IMG/VR virus record: IMGVR_UViG_3300009071_000031
Coordinates: 1 to 32,087 of that record
Length of the DNA: 32,087 nt
Origin: a virus
Strand: one strand, 5' to 3'
In this document: in pieces, positions 16,467 to 25,091 of the stretch
Numbering within the stretch: position 1 is the first letter of the stretch
Layout of the letters: each line of letters starts with the position of its first letter
Program-made: the position numbers and the translations under genes
The notes under the pieces: generated by a model
Database searches by the model: none
The model's input: only the letters and a program-made list of their open reading frames with translations
What the model was told of the DNA's origin: nothing

Positions 16467-16577
16467 GTTTGTTATCCCCCAAGGTGTTACTTATAGTACA
16501 CTATGCACCATATCTCCCTTTTGTTTTTACTAATTAAAGTGGTGGAGTATGTGCTTGTTTTGTACTTACCTTATTAT

Positions 16578-16605
16578 ATTATACACGATATCTCCTAGTT
16601 GTCAA
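16578..16605 (-). promoter_or_regulatory. Sigma-70 promoter for the packaging/virion operon
   Basis: Perfect TTGACA (16605-16600) and perfect TATAAT (16583-16578), 16-base spacer, with GTG preceding the -10 and AT following it. It points left into the late genes with an untranslated leader of about 105 bases. A host sigma-70 promoter of this strength in front of late genes suggests either early firing or control by a repressor or a phage factor. Confidence 0.85.
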
Positions 16606-16635
16606 GTTAATTCTAATAAAAAAATTATTTTTTAC

Positions 16636-16663
16636 TTGACAAAATGGCACACAGGTGTATAAT
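16636..16663 (+). promoter_or_regulatory. Divergent sigma-70 promoter pointing into the non-coding region
   Basis: Perfect TTGACA (16636-16641) and perfect TATAAT (16658-16663), 16-base spacer, again GTG before the -10. It is back to back with the late promoter, 30 bases between the two -35 boxes. No rightward gene follows; all genes up to 24085 are on the other strand. A perfect promoter without a gene suggests a non-coding RNA or a replication primer. Confidence 0.8.
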
Positions 16664-17228
16664 AGAACTACCCCCTTACCCGGGGGCTTACACCCTGTAT
16701 ACAGATAGACCTATAAGGGTTCCCGCAGGGTCAAGCGTTTACTAGTTTACAGGGTAAATTCTATAAAATTGTAGCAACTTTGTATACAGCCTACCACCCC
16801 ACCCCCCATGCCCCTAGCGACCCTATTAAAATAAATATATATATATCAATAACTTAGCTATCTATATAACTTACGATAATTATCATATAAAAAGACACCT
16901 AAAAAACCCCCAAAAACCCCCGATTATAACTTACGATAATTACAGATGTCGTAAGATATATTTTATTTCCCCTAAATTTATTCTAGATACAAAAAAGGGT
17001 TAAAGCGGGTTTTATTAGGGGTGGTACCCTAAATTAATTCTAAGGTACTCTAAATTAAACCCTCAACTGGTTCCTAGTTTATTTAGGGCTTATTCCCTAG
17101 CCCCATTGCGAACAATAAGCACCCTAAAAACCCTTCAATTTACACGCATAAACCACTAATTAAACTTAGATGTAAACTAGGGTTAGAACCTCAATAAAAC
17201 TGGGTGTATCCGCAAGAATACCCGAAAT
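16664..17228 (+). ncRNA. Candidate non-coding transcript / origin-like region
   Basis: No gene of useful length on either strand. Behind the consensus promoter the sequence carries CCCCC/GGGGG (loop of six) at about 16671-16686, ACCCTGTA (16692-16699) pairing with TACAGGGT (16748-16755), the palindrome CTGTATACAG and a second TGTATACAG near 16782, then an AT tract (16828-16850), two 18-base direct repeats, and many short CCCTAAA/AACCC elements up to 17180. The leftward terminator at 17229 shields it from leftward transcripts. It could be a regulatory RNA, a replication origin with transcript priming, or both. The 3' end of any RNA is not obvious. Confidence 0.4.
16865..16942. repeat. Two 18-base direct repeats, 60 bases apart, iteron-like
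   Basis: TATAACTTACGATAATTA occurs at 16865-16882 and 16925-16942, exactly 60 bases apart. The second copy is followed by TCGTAAG (16949-16955), an inverted match to its CTTACGA core. An AT tract lies just to the left. Repeats plus AT tract resemble a protein-binding origin, but no initiator gene was recognised. Confidence 0.6.
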
Positions 17229-17251
17229 AAAAAACCCCCTAAAAAGGGGGC
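17229..17251 (-). terminator. Intrinsic terminator of the leftward early transcript
   Basis: Minus strand: CCCCC (17250-17246), loop, GGGGG (17239-17235), then six Ts and ATTT. It follows the stop of the gene at 17277-17504 by about 25 bases and marks the left border of the accessory module. Confidence 0.85.
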
Positions 17252-17270
17252 TTGTAACTGGTTATTAGTT
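17251..17270. repeat. 20-base direct repeat in front of a terminator, copy 1
   Basis: The plus-strand 20-mer beginning CTTGTAACTGG and ending TTATTAGTT is repeated exactly at 17742-17761. In both places it abuts the 5' side of the terminator stem (minus strand). The core AACTGGTT also recurs near 17066, 18114 and 18188. Confidence 0.85.
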
Positions 17271-17276
17271 AGGGGT

Positions 17277-17504
17277 TTATTTATTATTATTACTAATATT
17301 AATTTTAAGATTAAAAGCCCCTCTTTTTGTCATTTCATCAGTTATAAAAGTTAATACTTCTTTATGATTAACTAAAGTTTTATTATTAATGAAATCAAAA
17401 ACATTAGATAAAGCATCTAAAGAACCAACTATATATTTATAATCGCTATGGCTAATATCATTAGATAAATTTGATAATTGATATTCAATTTTATTTTTAT
17501 TCAT
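17277..17504 (-). CDS. Small hypothetical protein, paralogue of 17976-18221
   Basis: 75 residues from the ATG at 17504. An upstream TTG (17576) keeps the frame open but lies in a structured leader. The ATG is preferred because it aligns with the start of its paralogue (MN...YQL versus MN...LQL). The central block GSLDALSNVFDFINN matches GSIDALTNIFNWAIN of the protein at 17976-18221, so the two are diverged copies. No ribosome site is obvious. It ends just before a terminator and is thus the last gene of its own short transcript. I know no family with this block; it looks like a short amphipathic helical protein. Confidence 0.65.
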   Translation of the reverse strand: MNKNKIEYQLSNLSNDISHSDYKYIVGSLDALSNVFDFINNKTLVNHKEVLTFITDEMTKRGAFNLKINISNNNK

Positions 17505-17714
17505 AATTATTCTAGATAAACTAATTTTATTAATTGTATATATTAATCTTAACCATGCAAAAAAGACATAAGCCAAATTTTACTTTTTTTAAAAGCTAAA
17601 AAATAAATGGGGGTTTTATGCGGGTTACAAAAGATTTAAGCCCCTGGCATAAGCTGTCATTAAAAATTTGGCTGCTAAAACAAAGTTTATGCAAAATAAA
17701 CATACTAAGAGAAT
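17505..17714 (-). promoter_or_regulatory. Leader region with an 11-bp inverted repeat
   Basis: About 210 bases without a convincing gene between a terminator and the small gene at 17277-17504. AGCCAAATTTT (17571-17581) and AAAATTTGGCT (17663-17673) are perfect inverted repeats, and AGCTTATGCC-like words recur beside them. On the minus strand this would be a long hairpin in the gene's 5' leader. No consensus promoter was found. A 36-codon frame here has no ribosome site and was not accepted. Confidence 0.4.
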
Positions 17715-17742
17715 AAAAAAACCCCGCTTTTTAGGGCGGGGC
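17714..17742 (-). terminator. Intrinsic terminator after the membrane-peptide operon
   Basis: Minus strand: CCCCGC (17741-17736), loop of eight, GCGGGG (17727-17722), then seven Ts and ATT. It follows the 29-residue peptide gene. Stem and loop are identical to the terminator at 18545-18574. Confidence 0.9.
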
Positions 17743-17761
17743 TTGTAACTGGTTATTAGTT
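17742..17761. repeat. 20-base direct repeat in front of a terminator, copy 2
   Basis: Exact second copy of the 20-mer at 17251-17270, again just upstream (minus strand) of a terminator. The pair suggests that a terminator cassette with its upstream flank was duplicated, in step with the duplication of the neighbouring paralogous genes. Confidence 0.85.
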
Positions 17762-17768
17762 CGGGTTA

Positions 17769-17858
17769 TTAAATATTTATATCAAGTATTATAAAAGCAA
17801 AAAAAACCCAAACAAGATTGATAGAAATACTCCATAATATTAATTCAAATATATTCAT
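17769..17858 (-). CDS. 29-residue membrane peptide
   Basis: ATG at 17858, two bases after the stop of the previous peptide gene. The product, starting MNIFELILWSISINLVW and ending IILDINI, is almost wholly hydrophobic, with two Trp and one predicted membrane helix. It is the last frame before the terminator. No ribosome site is clear, so it may depend on coupling to the upstream peptide. Peptides this short are missed by standard gene finders. Possible roles: small holin-like, membrane-enzyme modulator or superinfection exclusion; none can be chosen. Confidence 0.5.
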   Translation of the reverse strand: MNIFELILWSISINLVWVFFAFIILDINI

Positions 17859-17860
17859 GA

Positions 17861-17935
17861 TTACTTATAAAAGAAGGCAAGAATAAAAACGCCTACACAA
17901 ATTAAAAGCATGAATAATATAAAATCACTAAGCAT
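17861..17935 (-). CDS. 24-residue membrane peptide
   Basis: The ATG at 17935 directly follows the stop of the 15-residue peptide (TAA then ATG). The product begins MLSDFILFMLLICVG and ends AFFYK: a single membrane helix with a basic end, an acidic residue near the N-terminus and one Cys. This resembles other small single-pass phage peptides in plan. Translation would be by reinitiation. Function unknown. Confidence 0.55.
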   Translation of the reverse strand: MLSDFILFMLLICVGVFILAFFYK

Positions 17936-17983
17936 TTAAATTAATACCCAAATAGCAAAAACTATTAATACACATTCAATCAT
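17936..17983 (-). CDS. 15-residue hydrophobic peptide
   Basis: The ATG at 17983 overlaps the end of the gene at 17976-18221 by eight bases and follows GGGGG by nine bases, a possible ribosome site. The product MIECVLIVFAIWVLI is entirely hydrophobic apart from one Glu. It could be a membrane peptide or a translational bridge between the upstream gene and the next peptide. The exact stop-start chaining on both sides is the main evidence. Confidence 0.4.
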   Translation of the reverse strand: MIECVLIVFAIWVLI

Positions 17984-21125: not shown

Positions 21126-21482
21126 TCAAACATTTTTATAATTTATTTTTGCTTTTATTTTTAGTGTATCTAATATATTTTTTTCTTGTTTTGTTTTTTG
21201 TGTAAATAACCTAAAATTTTTTAATAGGTTCTTAAATGTTTTAGGGTACTTACGCAAAAGATTTGTTTCATAAGCTGTATTAAAATAGAGGCTAGGTAAC
21301 GCTGACATTTTTATGCTGACATTTTTTCGTAAGGCTATGTCATATACGCTGACATTTTTTCTAGCACCTTTTATAAAATATAGTCTACCACCCGATTTAA
21401 ATTTTGTGTGATGATATCTACCAAAATCTGCATCGACAAGTATCCAATCGGTTGACATTTTATTTTCTGTTGACATTGACAT
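21126..21482 (-). CDS. Hypothetical protein directly downstream of the structured RNA region
   Basis: 118 residues, basic, starting MSMSTENKMSTDWILVDADFG. Central RYHHTKFKSGGRLYFIKGARKNVSVYD looks like a small beta domain; the C-terminus is Lys-rich and helical. No family recognised. The ATG follows AAAGGGAG by five bases. The gene's DNA repeats the words ATGTCAA (three times at the start) and AAAAATGTCAGC (three times at 21301-21360). It is the first gene after the long non-coding region at 21483-22297, which could act as its leader. Confidence 0.6.
   Translation of the reverse strand: MSMSTENKMSTDWILVDADFGRYHHTKFKSGGRLYFIKGARKNVSVYDIALRKNVSIKMSALPSLYFNTAYETNLLRKYPKTFKNLLKNFRLFTQKTKQEKNILDTLKIKAKINYKNV
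21301..21360. repeat. Clustered GCTGACATTTTT repeats
   Basis: GCTGACATTTTT (plus strand) occurs at 21301, 21315 and 21348, and TTGACAT at 21452, 21470 and 21476, all inside the 118-residue gene. TGACATTTTTT recurs at 22761 and 22795 in the metallopeptidase gene. The copies straddle the structured region. They may be binding sites or chance in AT-rich coding DNA. Confidence 0.5.
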
Positions 21483-22297
21483 TTTACTCCCTTTCTTTCT
21501 AAACTTATGTGAAGGCTACATATGGCTATTTACATCTGCTTTTAGTCTGCCTTTTTAACTCGCTAATATCACAAGCCGCCAACTTAATGAAGTTATCAAT
21601 AGACGAACAATTACCTTGTATACTTTCGTATACCACTAATAGTGACTATAACCCTCACATAAATTTACGTTAGTACCAAAGGGTTTCTCGAATCTACCTA
21701 GGACACTTTACAAAAGCCAACCACCTACAAGTCAATCGCCGACAGGTTTGATACTAACGTAAACTTATTGTAGGTACAGTAAAGCTATGTTAAATCATCT
21801 AGAATTACAAGTCATTACTGTACCTACCAAGACAGCACACGCTTTAACACGGCTTATCTTGTTGGTAGACTTAACAAGAATAAAGGCTTACCAAATCGTC
21901 TACCAAACTTGGTACATCTTTTTTATTCTTGTGTTAGGAAAAGGACTTACAGATATATCTACCATGCCCACTCCTAAACATGTTGTGAAGTAATTTTGCG
22001 ACTCGTGGACACTGCATACTTCTTGTGGCATCCGCCATTGGCGTGGAACTTCCACAATTAAATGTTACCTACATTTAAACAAGGGCAAGTAGGGAACTAG
22101 GACTTGCACTAGAGGTACACTTTGGACTATGCTTATTGCACATTCTAGGTCATACCCGAGCCTATCTCATTTTTTGTGTTGTTGAGAACAACCACCCAAG
22201 CGTCTAATTAGTATCTAGTAAGCCTTCCTTTTTTAGAGTCTTGATTTCAACAATGACCAGTTACTAGAAAACCTGTTTTTATATTTATGCCTACTAA
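21483..22297 (-). ncRNA. Candidate large structured non-coding RNA (~0.8 kb)
   Basis: No convincing gene on either strand over 815 bases, in a genome that otherwise packs genes tightly. The base composition is visibly less AT-rich than its neighbours. Perfect inverted repeats fill it from end to end: 22215-22221/22261-22267, 22178-22183/22187-22192, 22085-22090/22102-22107, 22058-22065/22071-22078, 22023-22028/22052-22057 enclosing 22033-22036/22040-22043, 21770-21782/21815-21827 (13 bp), 21664-21675/21752-21763 (12 bp), 21618-21623/21628-21633 and 21581-21585/21590-21594. Two helices interleave (21862-21870/21898-21906 with 21874-21884/21922-21932), a pseudoknot. Minus strand is favoured because both flanking genes read that way and the 21618 hairpin then has a GAAA (GNRA) loop. 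Size and phage setting recall GOLLD or ROOL RNAs, but I cannot match it to either. Confidence 0.65.
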
Positions 22298-22471
22298 CTA
22301 AACACTATCTCTTTTATCTGCTTTGTTTTTTGCCGTCAATAAAATTTTAGCAAAGTTATCCACAGGATGAAACTTTTTTATGTAACATAGAGTACAATAC
22401 CAAATAGTATCTGTTGCTCTTATTGTAGGTACACTAACTTTACAGCTCATGCACTTTTTGTTATCTGCCAT
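22298..22471 (-). CDS. Small zinc-ribbon protein
   Basis: 57 residues from the ATG at 22471, chosen because AAAGGAG stands eight bases upstream; a GTG at 22480 would add three residues. Two CxxC pairs (KKCMSCK near residue 6 and WYCTLCY near 25) make a compact zinc ribbon, followed by a basic helical tail. It overlaps the metallopeptidase gene by 25 bases. Such proteins often bind nucleic acid or host RNA polymerase, but the partner is unknown. Its stop lies at the edge of the structured non-coding region. Confidence 0.65.
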   Translation of the reverse strand: MADNKKCMSCKVSVPTIRATDTIWYCTLCYIKKFHPVDNFAKILLTAKNKADKRDSV

Positions 22472-22800
22472 ACTAACCACTCCTTTAGTTCACTTCTCAT
22501 AAATAATTCTGTTGTAAAATTTGCATAAGAATTGACAATAGTTTCTTCTTCTTTATCTTTTAATAAGTACTGGTAGAAGCCAAGATGAAAAAATTCATGT
22601 ATTAAAACATTAACAGCATCCATACCACCATCAGAAATAATTTCTTCATCTAAAAATATTTTATATGGTGGCTTACCTAAAAAAACTCCTTGAGCATCAG
22701 AAATTTCGTAGGCAACTTCATGCGGTATTAAAACTATTTCTACTTTAAATGCACCTAGGGTGACATTTTTTGGTAGCTTAACTATTTTATTTGCTGACAT
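22447..22800 (-). CDS. Zinc metallopeptidase-like protein (HExxH)
   Basis: 117 residues. VNVLIHEFFHLGFY contains HExxH (His68, Glu69, His72), the zinc-binding and catalytic motif of gluzincin/minigluzincin-type peptidases; a third ligand may be a Glu in KEEETIVNSYANF downstream. The upstream PYKIFLDEEI is the usual substrate-edge strand. Small phage proteins of this kind are common, and their substrates are unknown; they resemble the peptidase part of SprT- or ImmA-like proteins without the extra domains. Overlaps both neighbours. Likely acts in the cytoplasm on a host protein. Confidence 0.75.
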   Translation of the reverse strand: MSANKIVKLPKNVTLGAFKVEIVLIPHEVAYEISDAQGVFLGKPPYKIFLDEEIISDGGMDAVNVLIHEFFHLGFYQYLLKDKEEETIVNSYANFTTELFMRSELKEWLVWQITKSA

Positions 22801-24183: not shown

Positions 24184-24211
24184 TTGACATTAATTTTTGG
24201 TAGTTTACAAA
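24184..24211 (+). promoter_or_regulatory. Probable promoter for the replication module
   Basis: TTGACA (24184-24189) and TACAAA (24206-24211), 16-base spacer. The expected start, about seven bases on, coincides with 24218, the first base of the leader's outer helix, which supports the assignment. Confidence 0.5.
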
Positions 24212-24217
24212 GGATTA

Positions 24218-24308
24218 TTAGATACTGTGAAAGTGGATAAAACCGCCACCGACTAGTGTTGCGATAGGCACTTTAAAGCCGAGGTCAGTATCTAAACTAA
24301 AGGGGAGT
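24218..24308 (+). promoter_or_regulatory. Structured 5' leader of the primase gene, cis-regulatory RNA candidate
   Basis: TTAGATACTG (24218-24227) pairs perfectly with CAGTATCTAA (24286-24295). Inside, AAAGTG (24230-24235) pairs with CACTTT (24269-24274), and CGC (24244-24246) with GCG (24261-24263). An 11-base unpaired strip (24275-24285) remains on the 3' side. The ribosome site AGGGGAG follows the outer helix immediately, so folding could control access to it. It does not match a riboswitch consensus that I can recall. It could be bound by a phage or host protein, or sense a metabolite. Confidence 0.55.
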
Positions 24309-25091
24309 ATGTTACAAAGTTTTTTAAAGAATTTAAATTTAAATGTTAATGAGGCAATAAGAATAGATTGTCCTATATGCTTTCATAAAAAAACCTTCTC
24401 TGCACTAAATAGTGGTGACCAAATAGTTTATAATTGTTTTCATGCTGATTGCAATCTTAAAGGCAGAACAAGAAGTGATTTATCTAAAAGATTATTTCAA
24501 CAAGTAGAAAAAGAAAAAGAACCAGAAATATTTTACTATAGAAATCATTGGGAAGAAAAATTAGAAAATAAAGATTACAGAGAATATGTTACACACTATG
24601 ATTTACAAGATTACTATGACATTATTCGTTATGATAGACACACTCATAGAGCAGTATTTTTAGTTAAGAAAGATGATAAATTAGTTGATGCAGTTGGTAG
24701 GGCATTATACAAAAACAAAAAACCAAAGTGGTATAGATATGGTAATTCTGGTTATCCATTTATACATGGAAATAGTGATACAGCAATTATCGTAGAAGAT
24801 GTGGTATCTGCACTAACTCTATCTAAATTTTGCACTGGTATAGCATTACTAGGAACTAACTTATTGCAATCCCATATTGATGTGCTAAAGAAATATAAAA
24901 AGGTTGGAATAGCACTTGACAAAGATGCAAGTAAAAAAGCTGTTAAGATATTAGATGATTTAGCTTTAAATATGAACGCTAAGTTTTTATTGTTAGAAGA
25001 AGATATAAAAGAAATGTTAGATGAAGATATTAAAAAGTTAGTAGATAAAGTAAACAATAAAGCTTGGGGTTGGATGAATGATACATACTGA
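24309..25091 (+). CDS. DNA primase (zinc-binding plus TOPRIM)
   Basis: 260 residues. An N-terminal zinc ribbon, Cys21, Cys24, Cys43 and Cys48 (CPICF...CFHADC), recognises the primer start site. The TOPRIM domain has the conserved Glu163 in AIIVEDVVSALT and the Asp204-x-Asp206 pair in IALDKDASKKA, which bind the metal for primer synthesis. Together they equal the N-terminal half of T7 gp4; the helicase half is a separate gene that overlaps by 14 bases. First gene of the rightward replication module, with a strong AGGGGAG ribosome site behind a structured leader. Confidence 0.9.
   Translation: MLQSFLKNLNLNVNEAIRIDCPICFHKKTFSALNSGDQIVYNCFHADCNLKGRTRSDLSKRLFQQVEKEKEPEIFYYRNHWEEKLENKDYREYVTHYDLQDYYDIIRYDRHTHRAVFLVKKDDKLVDAVGRALYKNKKPKWYRYGNSGYPFIHGNSDTAIIVEDVVSALTLSKFCTGIALLGTNLLQSHIDVLKKYKKVGIALDKDASKKAVKILDDLALNMNAKFLLLEEDIKEMLDEDIKKLVDKVNNKAWGWMNDTY

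Follow-up and report, generated by a model that had tools for sequence, protein, structure and literature searches.

A probable modular array of exchangeable structured RNA cassettes in the genomes of marine phages

Background

Several described systems resemble, in one respect or another, the locus reported here. REP and MITE-like sequences are small mobile palindromic elements, and the put antiterminator RNA of phage HK022 helps RNA polymerase to pass terminators. GOLLD and ROOL (Rfam families RF02032 and RF03087) are giant phage-borne RNAs, known to form homo-oligomeric cages. The 5' half of GOLLD is variable, and proximity to tRNA genes is common, though not strict, for both (PMC12286853). 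Phage mimics such as pseudo-ToxI require no cognate toxin gene. The pseudo-ToxI RNA of phage PhiTE changes by expansion and recombination (PMC3475682).

The whole stretch of DNA analysed in this work, hereafter the window, is a 32-kb record of IMG/VR. A block of 815 bases within it had been taken, in a reading of the sequence alone, for a candidate giant structured RNA, either a new member of the GOLLD or ROOL kind or a new class. According to the analysis described below, the block is very probably a modular non-coding RNA array, made of exchangeable structured cassettes that are read on the minus strand. Searches confined to open, journal-published literature returned nothing comparable.

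Results

The terminase encoded in the window finds its best matches, at ~48-57% identity, in HMO-2011-like podoviruses of SAR11, Roseobacter and Puniceispirillum. The nearest relatives of the GP88-family protein neighbouring the block reside mostly in SAR11 phages; any host assigned to the window phage is a putative one. Two minus-strand ORFs border the block exactly, ORF 22298-22480 with its stop and ORF 21126-21482 with its start. Six-frame translation revealed no long open frame in it, the longest listed ORF (plus strand) measuring 68 aa, and the gene-free character noted in the sequence-only reading was thus confirmed. A conserved protein frame, which according to that reading would speak against an RNA, was looked for in the block and not found. 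The block is also, as noted, less AT-rich than its surroundings, GC being 37.5% vs 33.0% in the whole window. The longest perfect stems measure 13, 12, 11 and 9 bp. Dinucleotide shuffles contained on average 0.045 stems of at least 11 bp, and none of 200 reached three; the abundance of long helices is real, and far exceeds chance. Folding energies calculated with local pairing gave z = -3.5 for the minus and -2.7 for the plus strand (60 shuffles each). The GNRA loop predicted on the minus strand is found as GUAUAC-GAAA-GUAUAC. The adjacent helices of 13 and 12 bp, described as long-range, are real stems (21770-21782/21815-21827 and 21659-21680/21747-21768), but they close local hairpins, enclosing 32 and 66 nt, respectively. 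Most helices of the block are parts of distinct local modules. The tight packing supposed for the genome does not hold throughout, since the 16467-17975 interval is likewise gene-poor. This second stretch, of ~1.5 kb, hosts on the minus strand a pair of terminator-like hairpins, near 17750 and near 17260, with a common leader (CTAATAACCAGTTACAAGCCC), and also a repeated ATTATCGTAAGTTATA sequence. A start-like string, AAAAATGTCAG (TGACATTTTT on the plus strand), occurs in many copies in and around ORF 21126-21482 (21290-21486), and is present also at the start of ORF 22447-22800 (22760-22800).

About ten self-contained hairpin and pseudoknot modules are arranged end to end in the block, several of them linked by the sequence TAARTTTA. 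The modules are listed in Table 1.

Table 1. Position of the RNA modules and associated features in the window
Feature	Position	Strand	Remarks
Whole modular RNA array, 815 nt	21483-22297	-	gene-free, between two minus-strand ORFs; homologues in 17 contigs
Stem P1 (22298-22305 paired with 22200-22207) around hairpin module H1 (22201-22297)	22200-22305	-	covariation
Module A, H-type pseudoknot (GUUGU-UCUCA-ACAAC with UGAGA)	22165-22199	-	covariation of the loop helix
Module PK2, second H-type pseudoknot, invariant AAUGUGCAAUAAGCAUAGU	22111-22164	-	covariation in relatives; also matched by two array sites and by further loci
Linking segment and small hairpin UUAAAUGU/ACAUUUAA	22058-22110	-	common to L052 and L065
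Module E, hairpin (UUGUGGAAGUUCCACGCCAAUGGCGGAUGCCACAA)	22023-22057	-	found too in L045 and L052, and in L148 nested within module J
Hairpin GAAGUA...UACUUC	21987-22022	-	minimum-energy fold; common to L052 and L059
Module B (GUUUAGGAGUGGGCAUGGUAG)	21932-21986	-	best-conserved part of the locus; exact in 17 contigs
Exchangeable hairpin, 11-bp stem ACAAGAAUAAA/UUUAUUCUUGU	21864-21932	-	replaced by other hairpins in L044, L053 and L057
Module C, hairpin (CAAGAUAAGCCGUGUUAAAGCGUGUGCUGUCUUG), optional	21828-21863	-	exact pattern in 11 contigs; missing from L049 and L050
Module D, 13-bp stem GUAGGUACAGUAA/UUACUGUACCUAC, interchangeable interior	21770-21827	-	in relatives, a similar stem around one of several interiors
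Module F, 20-bp stem, structured interior	21660-21766	-	covariation; present in L070, L071, L078 and L157
Module G, long stem UUUAUGUGAGG/CCUUCACAUAA, inner GAAA-tetraloop hairpin at 21618-21633	21499-21667	-	common to L048, 95-98%
Purine-rich ribosome-binding site of ORF 21126-21482	21483-21498	-	AGAAAGAAAGGGAGUAAA then AUG
Module M1 alone, 5'UTR of primase ORF 24309-25091	24216-24297	+	TTGACA box upstream at 24185

Homologues were searched by the use of flanking proteins first, and of core motifs next; a search seeded with ORF 22447-22800 pulled in also unrelated phages devoid of the array RNA. Module B homologues were identified in 17 IMG/VR contigs, and in 16 of the 17 they reside at the same locus. 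On the minus strand, P1 at the 5' end is succeeded by a set of modules, and these by the ribosome-binding site that serves the downstream ORF. P1 includes, in its 5' strand, the stop codon of ORF 22298-22480; H1 is common to the window and L144 (87%). The length of the array among relatives varies from ~340 to 815 nt, with whole hairpins added, dropped or exchanged. In three relatives (L048, L049 and L057) both flanks are 68-71% identical to the window, and the array segments shared, which cover just 87-370 of the 815 nt, are 94-98% identical. In other relatives, among which L044 and L046, the shared segments are no more similar than the flanks. P1, A and B recur at the locus in fixed order, and A, C, D, F and G are each absent from some members.

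The size of the array, its pseudoknots, the phage setting and the fixed order of P1, A and B would all fit a giant, ornate RNA like GOLLD or ROOL, a single large assembly with an unusually variable periphery, the more so as GOLLD is likewise variable in its 5' half (PMC12286853). This hypothesis is weakened by the lack of Rfam matches, by the dispensability of A, C, D, F and G, each in some members, and by the occurrence of single modules alone elsewhere, and we consider it quite improbable. The array is better read as a combinatorial set of small RNA modules. Of the giant structured RNA initially proposed, a large structured minus-strand phage RNA remains; one cooperative fold looks improbable, as whole hairpins are gained, lost and swapped across relatives.

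In stems of at least 10 Watson-Crick pairs, G.U outnumber A.C combinations 60:14, while base composition predicts a ratio of ~1.3:1. Matches between arrays are in the sense orientation in 1222 instances, and antisense in only 10, mostly palindromic stems. The RNA strand is settled by these counts and by the orientation of the matches. Covariation, sought among homologues, was detected in five helix sets, corresponding to the module A pseudoknot, the 20-bp stem of module F, two helices of module J, the PK2 pseudoknot and P1. As each small alignment comprises 7-10 distinct rows, and the choice of helices was made by eye, the counts are supportive, and fall short of a full R-scape test. Both sides changed in 4 of the 8 pairs of P1, with 100% of cells paired, and in two pairs of the module F stem, with 99% of cells paired. 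The loop helix of module A occurs as UCUCA/UGAGA, UCUCG/CGAGA and UCUAG/CUAGA. The window PK2 is a diverged copy positioned by eye. Its pseudoknot (GGGUA/UACCU) and that of L052 (GGAUA/UAUCC) were fitted in the same way, and excluded from pair counts because shifted by the aligner. Covariation and strand-consistent wobble pairs, taken together as the hallmark of a structured non-coding RNA, are both found. The G.U excess and the sense orientation are hard to reconcile with a DNA element, for example a replication origin folding into hairpins on single-stranded DNA, which could be envisaged because primase and helicase genes are close by and recombination is high. As small genes flank lone modules in cultured phages, and the array precedes a different gene in three contigs (L147, L148 and L150), such an element is very improbable.

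The arrays are mosaic in structure. Homology breakpoints were enclosed on average by 8.47 base pairs vs 11.45 expected (sd 0.38), a value matched in none of 2000 rotations, 14% of them were found near an ARTTTA linker vs 5.6% expected, and 39 TAARTTTA sequences were observed vs 3.7 expected, with no comparable enrichment of the reverse complement; the breakpoint and linker figures are not strict probabilities, because related sequences are non-independent. Breakpoint depth has the same value when calculated on the opposite-strand fold, and this test is therefore uninformative on strand. Modules are also nested, since J holds in L046, L078, L148 and L150 extra sequence in one arm, corresponding in places to a known module. 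The stem of module D (GUAGGUAC) carries several interiors, and the interior AAUGUAAAACUGGUUUGAAACGUUUUU is found on differing stems (L048/L019, L066 and L071). Copies of a module repeat only occasionally within arrays (L045 and L076). Exact patterns of A, B, C and E were found in viral contigs only inside such arrays. As far as sequence comparisons can tell, both the modular structure of the array and the exchange of whole modules are well supported.

Modules that are present or absent at a given site, that are inserted into one another, and that remain nearly identical in phages diverged elsewhere would also fit selfish palindromic elements, spreading as DNA among phage intergenic sites with no benefit to the phage. 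Yet, the orientation of modules is fixed to transcription, the G.U bias is strand-specific, arrays may have their own promoter and terminator, and the exact A, B, C and E patterns have no copies outside arrays. Mobile palindromic elements are expected in either orientation and beyond one kind of locus, which is at odds with a 1222 to 10 partition of sense and antisense matches. A selfish origin of the modules seems accordingly improbable.

Judging from their positions, modules sit between genes, in the primase 5'UTR, or in a unit with apparent promoter and terminator upstream of primase. In L052, 405 nt of the window array are found at 97% identity directly upstream of the primase gene. The L052 array has a TTGACA-17-TATAGT promoter, contains no gene, and terminates with a run of eight T preceded by a long, GC-rich hairpin; this end overlaps the apparent primase promoter. 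This terminator was missed by a simple scan because its loop exceeds the length allowed. One arm of the array terminator (CCTTGACTTTTTTTT) is also the -35 box of the apparent primase promoter (L052:3640-3700, L072, L070 and L068). Other module combinations are located upstream of ~19 further primase genes. In L076, L077 and L078 the region upstream of primase features paired small hairpins with a near-constant interior (AGGGUGUUAAUCCAAA) and differing stems. The modules of L147, L148 and L150 lie instead upstream of a different gene, which may encode a ssDNA-binding protein; a structured element of ~200 nt (AAGGUUUCGGAC...AAAUCCGAA) is found before the modules. The primase 5'UTR site hosts M1, PK2, J or nothing in close relatives. 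M1 folds with a 10-bp closing stem, and exhibits a mean column identity of 95% with L052, L065 and L072. A strong promoter site (at least 10/12) was detected by a strict scan just upstream of 6 of the 11 primase-linked or stand-alone arrays, vs 4% of random windows, the remaining arrays being promoter-like by eye only.

HTVC115P, a SAR11 phage in culture, has a single copy of module J (2745-2860), flanked by two small genes; this copy was recognized at E ~1e-17 by a covariance model whose training set included the HTVC115P sequence. Another cultured phage, HTVC105P, matches a short piece of another module, again between genes. Strongly conserved joining sequences (AUGAAAAG and GUAUAAAA) surround the covarying helices of J (L070:9-128, L158:2745-2860 and relatives), and J could be an aptamer or a riboswitch-like element in its own right. 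All in all, marine phages, including at least one phage of SAR11, appear to have traded entire modules.

Modules may function as cis-acting mRNA elements, involved in protection from RNases, in processing, or in the passage of RNA polymerase through terminators. Any strong structure would suffice for such tasks, and modules would therefore be interchangeable. This notion agrees with the primase 5'UTR, where modules immediately precede ribosome-binding sites, with the window and the cultured phages HTVC115P and HTVC105P, where they are intergenic, and with the start of P1 within a stop codon. Lone modules in 5'UTRs and intergenic sites are explained in this way at least as well as by an action in trans. 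However, the long array of L052 is a separate, gene-less unit with an apparent terminator, the primase module is wholly missing in close relatives, and the conservation of interior sequences far exceeds the need of a mere barrier. A role in cis, the principal rival of an action in trans, is deemed less likely than not.

The Rfam search called for in the sequence-only reading was carried out. No match was found in the window at the gathering threshold, nor did the GOLLD and ROOL models match the 21200-22600 interval even with E up to 10 allowed. Nothing credible was retrieved from the window and its relatives, whether the thresholds were gathering or permissive ones. Since the window lacks also a tRNA gene, kinship to GOLLD and ROOL finds no support. 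Weak matches to eukaryotic miRNAs and snoRNAs, and a sub-threshold match to STnc370, which falls outside the module, were ascribed to chance. The same holds for the only match, 35 nt long, obtained with T4-like coliphages by comparing the whole block to phage records by blastn; a match to the faecal phage MT835500 (E 4e-3) may be fortuitous. Neighbouring ORFs gave no match to toxins (Pfam, PADLOC), no defence gene was recognized beside the locus (PADLOC), and no Rfam antitoxin was matched. For B and for J, a single exact pattern was searched in 84,980 prokaryote genomes with no hit, and no mimicked host RNA was therefore identified. Such arrays can evade family-based searches, because they offer no fixed consensus over their full length from which a model could be built.

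Discussion

We favor the view that the modular array is transcribed early in infection, and may act in trans on host factors. Taken as a whole, we give this statement a probability of roughly 0.4. According to this scenario, each module would be a conserved internal motif shown on an interchangeable stem, and would bind or block one host RNA or protein, such as a defence nuclease, a toxin or a regulatory RNA. Modules would be reassorted by phages as host factors change, in a manner comparable to the antitoxin-mimic RNA repeats of PhiTE. An action in trans is suggested by the existence of a gene-less stand-alone unit, the many unlike modules per RNA, the conservation of interiors, and the changes of modules among close relatives. 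That modules act specifically as trans-acting decoys is a tentative proposal. Equally tentative is the idea of a combinatorial RNA effector locus, in which a shared and traded library of modules, each directed against a different host factor, is assembled in one non-coding transcript. Phages of some of the most abundant ocean bacteria would then possess, in RNA form, an equivalent of anti-defence gene islands. If modules do act in trans, phages would carry a library of RNA inhibitors legible straight from sequence. The presence of a module in HTVC115P, which grows on Ca. Pelagibacter HTCC7211, makes the idea testable in a cultured phage.

The array is best appreciated against the systems mentioned at the outset. 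It shares with REP and MITE-like elements the presence or absence of short, sometimes nested, hairpin units at a site, but its modules are oriented to transcription, G.U-biased by strand, equipped with their own promoter and terminator, and confined to arrays. As put in HK022, it is a structured RNA plausibly near the start of phage early transcripts; in contrast, many unlike modules are joined in the arrays, and stand-alone units end in a terminator. Like ToxI, a type III antitoxin RNA, and the pseudo-ToxI RNA of PhiTE, it is a phage non-coding RNA including pseudoknot units, which changes by expansion and recombination. ToxI repeats are, however, tandem near-identical pseudoknots, whereas the window modules, A and PK2 included, are unlike one another, and the array departs from this type. 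GOLLD and ROOL are similarly phage-borne, ~0.8 kb in size and rich in helices and pseudoknots, and GOLLD has a variable half; yet each has one conserved fold, while independent modules are reassorted in the window array. We know of no RNA class in which dissimilar hairpins and pseudoknots of a single transcript are reassorted as whole modules in the course of evolution. What can be called new is not the function, but the architecture of the array.
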